Of a stretch of 64,000 nucleotides of DNA, positions 19,352-25,975 are shown in pieces (the first letter of the stretch is position 1; each line of letters opens with the position of its first letter). The stretch comes from Flavobacteria bacterium MS024-2A (GTDB lineage Bacteria; Bacteroidota; Bacteroidia; Flavobacteriales; Flavobacteriaceae), in contig CAJJBB010000006.1 in the NCBI GenBank assembly GCA_905182305.1, forward strand, positions 124,001-188,000, read 5' to 3'. The notes beneath the pieces are model-generated. The model was not told the DNA's origin. It made no database searches and saw only the letters and a list, made by a program, of their open reading frames with translations. Both the position numbers and the translations under genes were made by a program.

Positions 19352-20074
19352 TTAATTAAGTATAAAACGTTCTAATTCCTTCAAGCTAATTCTGTTTTCA
19401 TAAATTGCTTTTCCGATAATCGTTCCATGACATCCCATAGAAGCTAACTTAGGGAGTTCTTCAAAAGCAGAAATCCCACCCGAAGCGATGAGCTTGATTT
19501 CAGGCTGTTCTTTTAATAAATTCTTATAAACCTCAAATGAAGGTCCTTGAAGCATTCCATCTTTACTAATGTCTGTGCATATAACATATTCTATACCTTT
19601 ATTTTGATAGCTTCCTACAAAATCTAACAAGCGATAACTAGAGGTTTTAAGCCAACCGTCAGTTGCAATATAATCTCCATGAAAATCCGCACCCAAAATG
19701 ATCTTTTCGTTTCCATGTGAACGAATCCATTCTTCAAAGATTTTCGGTTCATTAACTGCTATACTACCACCCGTAATTTGATTCGCCCCACATTCAAACG
19801 CAATTTCGAGATCTTTATTAGACTTTAGCCCCCCTCCAAAATCGATTTTAAGGGTTGTTTTAGTTGCTATAGCTTCTAATATCTTATAATTCACTATATG
19901 TTTAGATTTAGCGCCGTCCAGGTCTACTAAATGCAAATAATCAATTCCATGCGCTTCAAAAGCCTTCGCAACTTCCAAAGGGCTTTCGTTATAAATTTTT
20001 TGAGTACTATAATCTCCTTTAGAAAGACGCACACACTTACCGTCAATAAGATCAATGGCGGGTATTATTCTCAT
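19352..20074 (-). CDS. hisA: ProFAR isomerase
   Basis: The 240-residue TIM-barrel protein is a paralogue of HisF. It starts [20 protein letters not shown], with catalytic Asp8. The second catalytic Asp is in [13 protein letters not shown]. It catalyses the Amadori rearrangement of ProFAR to PRFAR. The ATG overlaps the hisH stop by four bases (ATGA), so translation is coupled. Confidence 0.97.
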
Positions 20075-21789: not shown

Positions 21790-22836
21790 TTAGTTGTCTA
21801 ATGATTGTAACACTTTGATTAATATATTATTTTCTTTGGGAGTTCCCACAGAAATCCGCAATGTGTTTTCACATCCCAAACTCTTAGATGAATTTCGAAC
21901 TACAATTCCTGTGACTATAAGCTGTTTGTATCTATGAATACTGTTATCTACACGGATCAGTAAAAAATTAGCATCAGAAGGAAAACATTTTTCAACCCAT
22001 TGTACCTTTTTAAGTGCAGCTTCCAAGAGGGCTCTCTCTTTTAATAAATCAGCGACCTGTTCTTTGACCTGTTCTTGTTCTTTTAGCTTTCGTAAAACAG
22101 CATTAAGTGTTAATGAATTGATGTTGTAAGGTGCCTTGATTCGGTTTAAAAAAGAAATCAACTCTTTATGAGCAAAAGCCATTCCTAAACGAGCTCCAGC
22201 CATTCCTTGAGCCTTTGAAAATGTTTGACAAACTATCAGGTTTGGGTAATTATTTAACAAAGGGAGAATTGAAGGAGTTTTCGCAAATTCGACATAGGCC
22301 TCATCTACAACTACTAAACCTTTAAAATTTTCAATAAGCGTTTTAATATCGTTGGAATTAAAACTATTCCCTGTTGGATTGTTAGGGTTTGGAATAAAAA
22401 GAAGCTTTGATTCTTCATTTATAGCTGTTAAAATACTGGGCACGTCCAATTGAAATTCAGAAGTGAGCGGTATTTCTTTAACACTAACTCCAAAGGTGGC
22501 TGCCGCTACTTTATACATCCCAAAAGTAGGAGGCACTATAACAATATGATCCATGCCAGGCTCACAACTTCCCATGACAATTTGAGAAATGAATTCATCA
22601 CTCCCATTACTCAAATAAATTTGCTCTAAACCTACCTTTCTCCAAATCGCAATTTGGGATTTTAGCTCCATTTGTAGGGGATCTGGATAACGATTGACTG
22701 AGGTTTCAAATGGATTTTCATTAGCATCCAGCAGAATCATCTTACGTCCATCGTTGATAAATTCCTCACGCGCAGATTGATAAGGTTTTAATTTTAGTAA
22801 AGATTTCCGAAAGTATTGATTAAAATCAGTTTCCAT
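21790..22836 (-). CDS. hisC: histidinol-phosphate aminotransferase
   Basis: The 348-residue fold-type I PLP enzyme contains L-D-A-N-E-N-P near residue 34, N-P-N-N-P-T-G near 150, D-E-A-Y-V-E-F near 176 and the PLP lysine in T-F-S-K-A-Q-G near 207. It makes histidinol phosphate from imidazole acetol phosphate and glutamate. Its first 11 bases overlap the end of hisD; hisB follows after 2 bases. Confidence 0.97.
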
Positions 22837-24118
22837 TAGCTAATTTATTTAAACGAATTCGCACTGCATTTTTATGGGCTTCTAGACCCTCAGCAGCAGC
22901 CATTAATTCAATTGTATTTCCCAAAGACTGAATTCCCTCCTTGGTGATTCTCTGAAATGTAATGGCTTTTAAAAAACTATCTAGATTCACACCACTATAT
23001 TGTTTTGAATATCCATTGGTTGGAAGAGTATGATTGGTTCCTGAAGCATAATCTCCTGCACTCTCAGGAGTGTAATTTCCAATAAATACTGACCCTGCAT
23101 TTCGAATACCTGAAACATAAAGATCCTCGTTTTTCACACAAATAATATAATGTTCTGGTCCGTAATCATTTATAAAACGAATTGCATTATTATCATTTGA
23201 AAAACAAATCATTTTAGAATTTTTTAATGCTATTTCTGCAATGGCCTTTCTGGGCAGGCGCTCTAATTGATTTGTCACTGCAACAGTAACTTTGTTCAAC
23301 ATTTCAGCTTCGGTAGTGACAAGAATTACTTGACTATCGGGGCCATGTTCTGCTTGAGAAAGTAAATCTGCAGCTATAAAATCAGGATCTGCTGAATCAT
23401 CGGCAACAACTAATAATTCACTTGGCCCTGCCGGCATGTCGATACTAACATTAAATCGTGTTGCCCATTGTTTAGCCGCGGTAACATATTGATTTCCTGG
23501 ACCAAATATTTTATAAACACCCGGTATTGATTCAGTCCCAAATGTCATCCCAGCAATGGCCTGTATTCCACCAACTTTAAAGATCGAAGTAATTCCACAA
23601 AGATTAGCGGTATATAGCACCACAGCGGGAATATTTCCTGAATTATCCGGTGGTGTACATAAGATAATTTCATTGCATCCTGCAATTTTAGCAGGAACAG
23701 CTAACATTAAAATCGTTGAAAATAATGGAGCTGAACCTCCTGGAATATATAAACCTACTTTTTCAATAGCTTTTTTTTCTTGCCAACAATTCACTCCTGG
23801 TTCGGTTTCAATTCGAATCTCCGGGGTTTTTTGTGCAGAGTGAAATACCTCAATGTTTTGTTTCGCACGTTGTATAGCCTCTTTTAATTTATCTGCTACA
23901 TTATTCTCTGCTAATTGAATTTCAATTTTAGTAACAGAAATATGCTGAATAGAAACCTTATCAAATTTTTGAGTGTACTCTTTTATAGCTTTATCACCCT
24001 TTTCTTTCACTTGCTCAAAGACTTCTTCTACAACAACTTCCAAGTCCGAAGAGGAAGCATTAGGACGCTCTAAAAGATGTGCCCATTCTTTAGATGATGG
24101 ATTAATGTATTGTTTCAT
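22826..24118 (-). CDS. hisD: histidinol dehydrogenase
   Basis: The 430-residue zinc enzyme oxidises histidinol to histidine with two NAD+. Recognisable segments are L-Y-I-P-G-G-S-A-P-L near residue 127, G-P-G-N-Q-Y-V-T-A-A-K near 206, S-I-D-M-P-A-G-P-S-E near 226, the catalytic G-P-E-H-Y near 320, and G-T-N-H-T-L-P-T-N-G near 360. It starts on the same base as the end of hisG and overlaps hisC by 11 bases. Confidence 0.98.
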   Translation of the reverse strand: MKQYINPSSKEWAHLLERPNASSSDLEVVVEEVFEQVKEKGDKAIKEYTQKFDKVSIQHISVTKIEIQLAENNVADKLKEAIQRAKQNIEVFHSAQKTPEIRIETEPGVNCWQEKKAIEKVGLYIPGGSAPLFSTILMLAVPAKIAGCNEIILCTPPDNSGNIPAVVLYTANLCGITSIFKVGGIQAIAGMTFGTESIPGVYKIFGPGNQYVTAAKQWATRFNVSIDMPAGPSELLVVADDSADPDFIAADLLSQAEHGPDSQVILVTTEAEMLNKVTVAVTNQLERLPRKAIAEIALKNSKMICFSNDNNAIRFINDYGPEHYIICVKNEDLYVSGIRNAGSVFIGNYTPESAGDYASGTNHTLPTNGYSKQYSGVNLDSFLKAITFQRITKEGIQSLGNTIELMAAAEGLEAHKNAVRIRLNKLANGN

Positions 24119-24969
24119 TACAATACCATTTTTTCAATTGGACATACAAGAATATCTTCAGCGCCTTCTGCCTTCAGAGAATCAATAACTTCCCAAAAAT
24201 CGCCTGCATTTATTACAGAATGTAACGAACTCCATCCTTCTTCTGCAAGTGGTAAAATTGTTGGACTTTTTAAAACAGGTAAAATAGTACTGATAGATGC
24301 AATTTTATCATTTGGTACATTCATTAAAATATATTTAGATTTTTTTGCGCGTAAAACCGATTTTATTCTAAAGCAAAGTTTGTCAATTAATTCTGTTTTA
24401 ACTTCATTTAAATTGGGTGCTTGAACTAAAACCGCTTCTGAAGTGGCAATCTGAATAACCTCTTTTAAGTTGTTTTTAAATAGTGTACTTCCACTAGAAA
24501 CAATATCACAAATGGCATCTGCTAAGCCAATATTAGGAGCTATTTCAACAGATCCGTTAATAATATGTAATCCTGCATTAATCTTATTCTTAGATAAAAA
24601 TGACTTTACTGTATTTGGATAAGATGTAGCAATTTGCTTACCCTCTAAATCTTCTAGACCAGAAAATGATATTCTCTTTGGCACTGCAATACAAACACGA
24701 CATTTTGAAAACCCTAATTTTTCAATAATGGATAAGTCTCCACCTTTTTCAACTACTAAATTTTCGCCTAAAATAGCCAAATCGACAACACCATCGCGCA
24801 TATACTGAGGAATGTCGCCATTTCTTAGAAAAAACACTTCCATAGGAAAATTTCTAACTGTTGTTTTTAATTGATCTTTTCCATTATCGATAGAAATACC
24901 ACAGTCTTTGAGTAACCTAAGAGAATCCTGGTTTAATCTTCCTGATTTTTGAATCGCTATTCTTATCAT
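24118..24969 (-). CDS. hisG: ATP phosphoribosyltransferase, long form
   Basis: The 283-residue protein is the long, hexameric form, with its own C-terminal ACT-like regulatory domain (about residues 210-283), so no HisZ partner is needed. The N-terminus I-R-I-A-I-Q-K-S-G-R-L, the G-I-D-N-G-K segment and the D-A-I-C-D-I-V-S-S-G-S-T-L PRPP loop are present. It is the committed step and should be feedback-inhibited by histidine. It is the first structural gene after the leader peptide and attenuator. Confidence 0.97.
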   Translation of the reverse strand: MIRIAIQKSGRLNQDSLRLLKDCGISIDNGKDQLKTTVRNFPMEVFFLRNGDIPQYMRDGVVDLAILGENLVVEKGGDLSIIEKLGFSKCRVCIAVPKRISFSGLEDLEGKQIATSYPNTVKSFLSKNKINAGLHIINGSVEIAPNIGLADAICDIVSSGSTLFKNNLKEVIQIATSEAVLVQAPNLNEVKTELIDKLCFRIKSVLRAKKSKYILMNVPNDKIASISTILPVLKSPTILPLAEEGWSSLHSVINAGDFWEVIDSLKAEGAEDILVCPIEKMVL

Positions 24970-25008
24970 TTTTTCATTTTATTGCTTAAACTCTGCGAAT
25001 TTTAAAAT

Positions 25009-25039
25009 AAAAAAACCCGCTTGAAATTCAAACGGGTTT
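25009..25039 (-). terminator. intrinsic terminator of the his leader (attenuator)
   Basis: On the minus strand AAACCCGTTTG and CAAGCGGGTTT form an 11-bp stem (one T-G wobble) with the loop AATTT, followed by seven T (25015 down to 25009). It sits between the leader peptide stop and hisG, the expected place for transcription attenuation. Confidence 0.9.
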
Positions 25040-25079
25040 CTATTACTCTATATACATAGCATCATTAGGACTCGTTTGA
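25028..25079 (-). promoter_or_regulatory. predicted antiterminator pairing of the his leader
   Basis: The minus-strand TCAAACG at 25079-25073, inside the end of the leader peptide frame, is the exact reverse complement of CGTTTGA at 25034-25028, which forms part of the 5' arm of the terminator. Pairing these seven bases would disrupt the terminator. A separate 8-bp hairpin, CATCATTA (25097-25090) with TAATGATG (25067-25060), involves the His codons and would keep the first segment in its loop when no ribosome stalls. Confidence 0.7.
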
Positions 25080-25109
25080 GACTTCTAAATAATGATGATG
25101 TATGTTCAT
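25065..25109 (-). CDS. histidine operon leader peptide
   Basis: The frame ATG at 25109 to TAA at 25067-25065 encodes MNIHHHYLEVSNES, with three consecutive CAT histidine codons at 25100-25092. An in-frame ATG at 25118 would add M-K-L at the front and is an equally possible start. Position just upstream of hisG, a His-codon run and a following terminator fit a ribosome-mediated attenuator: stalling on His codons when charged tRNA-His is scarce should favour read-through into the operon. The peptide itself has no expected function. Confidence 0.88.
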   Translation of the reverse strand: MNIHHHYLEVSNES

Positions 25110-25123
25110 TAATTTCATGGACA

Positions 25124-25131
25124 CAAATGTA
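25124..25131 (-). promoter_or_regulatory. Bacteroidota -7 box (TACATTTG) of the his operon
   Basis: This is a perfect TAnnTTTG on the minus strand, in the 47-bp gap between the SPFH gene and the leader peptide. The transcript would begin around 25118, so the leader peptide has a very short or no untranslated leader. No -33 TTTG is visible. Confidence 0.65.
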
Positions 25132-25156
25132 TTGAAAATTATTTTAATTTTCTAAC

Positions 25157-25975
25157 CTATTGATTTCCTAAAATAATTGGAAGACCTCCCTTACCACTTC
25201 CAATCACGATTACCTTAGAATTTGGAGATTCTGAAAGCTTGATAGTCGCTTCAATTCCTTTTTCTCTTAGAATTTTATCTGTTAATGAAGCACTCAAAAT
25301 ACGGTTAGCTGTTGCCTTACCTTCTGCATCAATTCTTTGACGCTCTGCCTCTTGTGTTGCTTTTTCAATACGGAATTCATATTCCAAAGCCTCTTGCTCT
25401 TGGTTTAACTTACGTTCAATCGCTTCACGAATGGCTATTGGTAAAGTCACATCACGAACTAAAACTGCATTTAATTGTACATATTGACCTTCAACTACTT
25501 TTTTAGTTTCTTCAAAAATTTCATTTTGAATAGCATCACGTTTTGTAGAATATAATTGTTCTGGTGTATATCGTCCAACAACACTTCTCGCTACAGCTCT
25601 TATTTGAGGAATAATAATGATATTTAGGTAATTTACTCCTTTTGTTTGGTGTAGTTTCCCTAATTCCGCAATAGTAGGCTGGTATAATACAGATATATCT
25701 AGACTAATTTCCAAGCCATTTGAAGAAAGTACTTGCATTTTACTTTCAAATACTTCTTGTTGCTTTACATTATATATGTAAACTTTATTCCATGGTGCTA
25801 TAATATGGAATCCTTCTCCTAATGGTGGCTCATCTGTAACAACTCCTCCACCAAAGGTTTTAAATAAAACTCCAGCTTCTCCATAACCTATATTTATAGA
25901 AGATTTAGAAATAAAAATAAGTAGGACAACGACTAATAATATAATTGGTAATCCGATTTTAGGTAATTTTTGCAT
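25157..25975 (-). CDS. prohibitin/SPFH (band 7) membrane protein
   Basis: The 272-residue protein has an N-terminal transmembrane segment (about residues 7-25), an SPFH/prohibitin domain (about 27-190, with G-E-A-G-V-L-F-K-T-F-G-G and V-V-G-R-Y-T-P-E-Q-L-Y) and a heptad-rich coiled coil (about 190-225) with E-A-E-R-Q-R-I-D-A-E-G-K. Such proteins build large membrane rings or scaffolds and partner with membrane proteases such as FtsH; the partner is not in this window. It is the last gene of the minus-strand operon, 14 bases after fabG. Confidence 0.9.
   Translation of the reverse strand: MQKLPKIGLPIILLVVVLLIFISKSSINIGYGEAGVLFKTFGGGVVTDEPPLGEGFHIIAPWNKVYIYNVKQQEVFESKMQVLSSNGLEISLDISVLYQPTIAELGKLHQTKGVNYLNIIIIPQIRAVARSVVGRYTPEQLYSTKRDAIQNEIFEETKKVVEGQYVQLNAVLVRDVTLPIAIREAIERKLNQEQEALEYEFRIEKATQEAERQRIDAEGKATANRILSASLTDKILREKGIEATIKLSESPNSKVIVIGSGKGGLPIILGNQ

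Follow-up and report, generated by a model that had tools for sequence, protein, structure and literature searches.

The enterobacterial hisL leader (Rfam RF00514, His_leader) combines a short ORF containing consecutive His codons with mutually exclusive antiterminator and terminator structures, and hisG is the first gene of the operon. Attenuators of his genes in Firmicutes, described for the Bacillus cereus group and others, carry 3–5 His codons in a row and alternative hairpins (PMC9413887). According to a 2010 survey, Proteobacteria and Actinobacteria were, to its authors' knowledge, the only groups in which leader-peptide systems had been shown; the same survey put forward a His leader for bacilli (PMC2965389). 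A 2021 transcriptome study of Flavobacterium psychrophilum reported strong clues that amino-acid operons are attenuated by leader peptides, together with a structured element ahead of hisG that is conserved in Flavobacteriaceae (PMC9723704). Shine-Dalgarno sequences are lacking in Bacteroidota, where leaderless mRNAs are reported to make up a minority of the messages (PMC6847099, PMC9723704, PMC7366714): 87% of the leaders in F. johnsoniae are longer than 10 nt (PMC6847099), 5.5% are leaderless in F. psychrophilum (PMC9723704) and about 3.7% of the 5′ UTRs in B. thetaiotaomicron are shorter than 10 nt (PMC7366714).

In the window (the whole stretch of 64,000 nucleotides analysed), the his genes are encoded on the minus strand. 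The long form of hisG with the HisG_C domain (24969-24118; Pfam PF01634 and PF08029) is the first gene of a presumed his operon spanning down to 19352. It is followed by hisD (22826-24118, identified by Pfam) and, farther down, by a gene with a His_biosynth Pfam domain (19352-20074) that is hisA by position; the hisC-, hisB- and hisH-like ORFs between hisD and hisA were named by eye from their translations.

The sequence-only reading had noticed a promoter box, a 14- or 17-residue ORF with three His codons and a hairpin with seven T ahead of hisG, and all of them were found in place on the minus strand. The promoter −7 box TACATTTG (25131-25124) fits the Bacteroidota consensus TAnnTTTG, reported at −12 to −5 (PMC6847099, PMC9723704), and is separated by 5 bases from the ATG of the leader peptide ORF. 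This ORF (25118-25065; MKLMNIHHHYLEVSNES, 17 codons and 17 aa) starts with ATG at 25118 and ends with TAA at 25067-25065. A second in-frame ATG at 25109 would give 14 aa; L009 and L010, which are the nearest relatives, have leader ORFs that start level with the first of these two ATGs. The three consecutive His codons CAT CAT CAT (25100-25092) are the candidate sensing codons, and the last leader codons, those of S-N-E, contain strand 2 of the predicted antiterminator (25080-25071; CTCAAACGAG). The minimum free energy fold contains an upstream hairpin, P1, whose 5′ arm (25103-25090) overlaps the His codons and whose 3′ arm (25067-25052) runs from the leader stop codon on. Hairpin search, folding and duplex energy define strand 3 (25041-25028), which is at once the 5′ arm of the terminator and the partner of strand 2; hairpin search and folding define strand 4 (25024-25009), the 3′ arm together with the U run.

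The terminator hairpin (25041-25011) begins 23 bases after the leader TAA. It was scored at 14 pairs, a count that includes AAA:UUU, and comes with TTTTTTT at 25015-25009, placing an intrinsic terminator (25041-25009) after the leader ORF and ahead of hisG, as in amino-acid attenuators. No other terminator-like site was found by the search of 24500-25500, where shuffled sequences averaged 0.4. The 114-nt leader folded at −30.7 kcal/mol, compared with −15.7 ± 2.9 kcal/mol for shuffled sequences (z −5.1), and none of the 200 shuffles equalled it. Upstream of the leader, an SPFH/Band 7 gene (25157-25975) lies on the same strand, and the his terminator may also act for this gene.

Conservation was analysed in two sets of hisG upstream regions. 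The close set consisted of the window and the best 80 of 551 confirmed hisG relatives, and is for that reason biased to Flavobacteriaceae-like genomes. For the class set, 159 Bacteroidia genomes were drawn evenly; 72 of them have hisG, and 70 upstream regions were used (L089-L158), the own genome and one contig-end fragment being omitted. In 80/80 close relatives, hisG was preceded by a short ORF containing two or more clustered His residues. Under a strict rule for His-dense ORFs, at least three His in seven residues of a short ORF, 70 of 81 regions in the close set and 61 of 70 in the class set were positive (131/151 Bacteroidia regions together, the close relatives being the best 80 of 551), compared with 12/1620 and 27/1400 shuffled regions, respectively. 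In the window, HHH is the run of cognate codons in a short upstream ORF that characterizes amino-acid attenuators. A very short leader was observed in L048 (MKINHHHTHFS), with its stop before the usual strand 2 and a CTCAAACG segment after the stop codon; its read-out may differ.

The comparison with trpE indicated that the runs are specific for the amino acid made by the operon. Among 29 family-level trpE upstream regions (L188-L216), Trp runs were present in 27 and His runs in none, and Trp runs were found in 3 of the 151 hisG regions. The strong hairpin could also be a plain terminator, constitutive or under protein control, lying between the SPFH gene and hisG and acting for the upstream gene, with the His-rich ORF as a by-product of RNA structure. 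This reading is very improbable: the His runs are kept between relatives while the flanking residues differ, trpE carries Trp runs at the corresponding place, and the hairpin lies downstream of the his promoter box. In the ilvD regions, 9/25 matched a loose I/V/L criterion, and four of them resemble real leaders by eye. These four, short Ile/Val-rich ORFs about 300 nt ahead of ilvD in L160, L163, L165 and L177, are possible branched-chain attenuators; none of this kind was found within 330 nt upstream of ilvD in the own genome (L169).

A draw across the phylum gave 148 genomes, 128 of them with hisG, and 66 new regions were examined (40 fetched regions and 26 search loci), the remaining hisG genomes being in the class set or left out. 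A His leader was present in 13/13 further Bacteroidia and in 24 of 53 regions from other classes. When the genomes were grouped by eye from the printed HisG starts, all 24 of these leaders fell to genomes with a QKSGRL-like HisG start (24/32, with L269, misplaced because its reading is not HisG, counted as a miss), and genomes with PKGSLQ-like or other starts gave 0/21. Some of the 24 leaders outside Bacteroidia, which are long or GTG-started ORFs, could be due to chance. One lineage outside Bacteroidia (L249, L268, L271 and L272) has long His-rich leaders with GTG as start codon, for which the predicted 5′ UTR is 0 nt.

Of the 151 hisG regions, seven have no leader; among the other 144, a terminator was called between leader stop codon and hisG in 136, and 128 of these terminators reached −9 kcal/mol or better. 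The pairing tests accordingly dropped 23 of the 151 regions: seven without a leader, eight without a terminator call and eight with a call weaker than −9 kcal/mol. The hairpin finder picked poor or no terminators in some leaders, and five of the dropped regions (L064, L070, L073, L079 and L084) nonetheless show the usual CCCGTTTG arm by eye. Four class-set regions of family f41 (L114, L120, L125 and L137) have a His-rich leader and no terminator call; another mode of termination, or action on translation, may apply there.

The last leader codons (CTCAAACGAG) are complementary to the 5′ arm of the terminator, so that TCAAACG at 25079-25073 can pair with CGTTTGA at 25034-25028 in the window. The duplex of strands 2 and 3 was calculated at −9.9 kcal/mol, with shuffle P values of 0.03 and 0.04 for this single sequence. 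Across the sets, the duplex beat shuffled sequences (P ≤ 0.05, 300 shuffles) in 59 of 76 close-set leaders (best 80 of 551) and in 24 of 52 class-set leaders, where about 4 and 3 were expected by chance. A separate run with 100 shuffles gave 82/128 at P ≤ 0.05, and the duplex was no better than shuffles (P > 0.3) in 15/128, for example in L105, L110, L122, L123, L150 and L152. The leaders of L105, L110, L122 and L123 are of an HHSHHAH type with a strong terminator, and their antiterminator may lie elsewhere. P1, in which the region of the His codons pairs with the sequence beyond the stop codon, beat shuffles (P ≤ 0.05) in 58/128 leaders.

In an alignment of 53 of the 81 close-set sequences, from which near-duplicates were left out, strand 3 was nearly invariant. 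For this reason covariation is absent within the close set and appears just between lineages, and duplex tests on each sequence and a swap test between lineages were used instead of a count of column pairs. In the swap test, the 76 F1-type leaders (CCCGUUUG arm) paired with their own strand 3 at −11.6, with that of other F1 leaders at −11.3 and with those of other types at −6.4 to −6.5. The 21 B1-type leaders (GGCUURCC arm) gave −13.3 with their own, −12.2 with other B1 and −8.0 to −8.4 with other types, whereas the contrast was weak for the remaining 31 leaders outside F1 and B1 (own −8.7 versus −7.2 to −8.2). The own strand 3 beat the median of the sampled strands of other types in 111/128 leaders. 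On these duplex energies, the two main lineages differ in the terminator and, in step with it, in the predicted antiterminator.

The textbook attenuator proposed by the sequence-only reading is thereby supported by the conservation of the His codons, the Trp runs at trpE and the alternative pairings. Its suggested check in relatives did not refute it: the His codons are kept, and the stems persist as pairings of differing sequence in the two main lineages. The predicted antiterminator, which overlaps the last leader codons and would make the element a switch, is an addition to that reading.

The geometry was analysed in the 109 leaders with a strand 2:3 duplex energy below −8. The median distance from the first His codon to strand 2 was 21 nt, and strand 2 ended at a median of +1 nt relative to the stop codon. 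Folding was carried out with an assumed ribosome footprint that extends for 13 nt, counted from the first nucleotide of the codon in the A site. With RNA made through strand 3, the strand 2:3 pairing formed in 46/109 leaders without a ribosome, in 106/109 when the first His codon was in the A site and in 99/109 when the last one was. With the ribosome at the stop codon it formed in 0/109, largely as a result of the assumed footprint, which covers strand 2. Once strand 4 was also made, the terminator formed in 109/109 leaders with the ribosome at the stop and in 106/109 with the ribosome stalled; since the finished terminator wins at equilibrium despite a stalled ribosome, antitermination must be kinetic and take effect before strand 4 exists. 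By sequence and folding, then, the predicted antiterminator excludes the terminator, is exposed by a stall and is covered at the stop, and it is weak or absent in some distant lineages.

With a probability of about 0.92, we consider the element to be a ribosome-mediated attenuator that controls transcription of the his operon, whichever its exact start. Sequence comparison and computed folding demonstrated the parts of such a device, their conservation, the mutually exclusive pairings and the geometry. From these we infer the probable course of events in the cell, from where transcription starts and how the ribosome loads to its stalling and to termination. RNA polymerase would start about one base upstream of the leader ATG, and the emerging 5′ end would be engaged by a ribosome translating toward the three His codons. 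When charged His-tRNA is scarce, the ribosome would stall at these codons and hide them, which would block P1 and leave strand 2 free to pair with strand 3 once that is made; the terminator would be prevented, and hisG and the genes beyond would be transcribed. When His-tRNA is plentiful, the ribosome would reach the stop codon and cover strand 2, so that strands 3 and 4 could pair and transcription would end at the U run. Without translation, P1 would compete and the outcome would be mixed.

A T-box specific for His, or a riboswitch sensing a protein or metabolite, could replace the translated sensor, and his genes are reported to be under T-boxes in Firmicutes (PMC9413887). No Rfam family reached its gathering score in a search of the entire window, the T-box was absent among the 48 sub-threshold matches, and the His runs of the leader are in frame. 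The leader is also, we assume, too short for a T-box. Such a sensor is very improbable. The His_leader family RF00514 itself scored 24.1 bits in a 231-base search (E 0.042), below its gathering threshold of 49 bits; Rfam decides nothing here, because the sub-threshold matches go to several leader families and unrelated ones score alike.

Returning to the ribosome-mediated attenuator, the position of its transcription start was predicted from the promoter boxes. The box ahead of the leader ORF places +1 at about 25119 and the leader ATG at +2, and the 5′ UTR is accordingly predicted to be about 1 nt long; the −33 element, TTAG, differs by one base from TTTG. UTRs were predicted by taking the nearest box and the start codon that comes first downstream of it, a procedure that leans to short UTRs. 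With it, an exact box was found for 64/81 close-set leaders, the other 17 having none within reach, and the predicted UTR was 0–4 nt in 49/81 (window and best 80 of 551), compared with 0.57 expected from the box density elsewhere in the same regions. Ten of these close-set UTRs (best 80 of 551) were of 0 nt, and four of those ten leaders start with GTG. In the class set, 50/63 leaders had an exact box, with a UTR of 0–4 nt in 10/63 (0.81 expected), of at most 10 nt in 28 and of more than 10 nt in 22 of the 50 boxed leaders. Trp leaders had a box in 27/27, with the nearest one predicting 0–4 nt in 11 and at most 10 nt in 16. The trpE of the own genome (L215) has the leader ORF MNKITILNSWWHTNSNSSS, the box TACATTTG and a predicted 5′ UTR of 1 nt.

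Ordinary ORFs of at least 150 aa offer a thin background for near-leaderless starts. A box was found for 12/200 at the family loci (median 21 nt, 0/12 at 0–4 nt), for 1/228 at the close hisG loci (none at 0–4 nt) and for 7/53 in the window; as 2 of these 7 lie at 0–4 nt, near-leaderless genes may not be rare in the own genome. The near-leaderless leader ORF of the sequence-only reading holds as a conserved property, as predicted from promoter boxes. For the leader of the window, such a start is probable, and its ORF would most likely undergo translation on an mRNA that has next to no 5′ UTR.

The same attenuator might instead be reached through a normal 5′ UTR, with the message starting farther upstream or the start site lying several bases off. 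The SPFH gene on the same strand has its 3′ end 26 nt upstream of the his promoter box, so read-through into the his leader is possible; the −33 element is imperfect, every start site is predicted by a method that favours short UTRs, and longer UTRs are often predicted outside the clade of the window. We regard this variant as unlikely, in view of the excess of close-set boxes at 0–4 nt over expectation, the GTG starts of zero-nt leaders and the boxes of the Trp leaders, 11 of them at that distance.

It is further conceivable, though we hold it only tentatively, that the Bacteroidota attenuators for His and Trp form a dedicated near-leaderless class, with promoters positioned to bring the leader start codon to the RNA 5′ end or to within a few bases of it, in which the ribosome loads upon emergence from the polymerase and without an adenine at −3. 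In F. johnsoniae, initiation is reported to benefit from adenine at this position (PMC6847099), and just 8 of the 31 near-leaderless leaders long enough for the position carry it. If such a class exists, its special near-leaderless loading would keep ribosome and polymerase close enough for His and Trp attenuation.

Attenuation requires a ribosome close behind RNA polymerase, and judging from the design, transcription and translation would be tightly coupled in this lineage. Should attenuators for His and Trp be usual among Bacteroidia, coupling in that class must suffice for them even though Shine-Dalgarno initiation is absent. A near-leaderless ORF of 17 codons with a built-in termination read-out would make a compact reporter of ribosome loading, and the leader, for which no Rfam model gave a match at threshold, gains a regulatory annotation from the analysis. 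Within the texts available from the Bacteroidota literature, no His leader peptide with its antiterminator was found described, nor were the antiterminator layout, the class-wide distribution or the near-leaderless spacing found. Vitreschak and others reportedly listed candidates from Bacteroidetes/Chlorobi in 2004.

Compared with known systems, the element of the window has the layout of hisL. It has three His codons versus seven in hisL as reported (PMC3896937), and it is apparently simpler, with strand 2 within the last leader codons and a predicted near-leaderless start. Like the element of the window, the Firmicutes attenuators have consecutive His codons and alternative hairpins; they belong to a different phylum, and the available text of that report does not mention a leaderless start (PMC9413887). 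The F. psychrophilum element concerns the same gene and family as that of the window; its main text on hisG, as far as available, comes without a leader ORF, an antiterminator, the spacing to a start codon or a distribution beyond the family (PMC9723704). A leader ORF likewise at or near the RNA 5′ end is reported for trpL of Sinorhizobium meliloti (PMC7298713), and a similar start for ilvBNC of Corynebacterium glutamicum, which is treated as leaderless in the discussion of that report (PMC11857589); both differ from the element of the window in phylum and amino acid. Given the published hisG element, the His leaders and the leaderless leader peptides, the element of the window belongs to an already known sort of attenuator, one that is ordinary in principle, well supported and useful, and its near-leaderless design is the interesting part.
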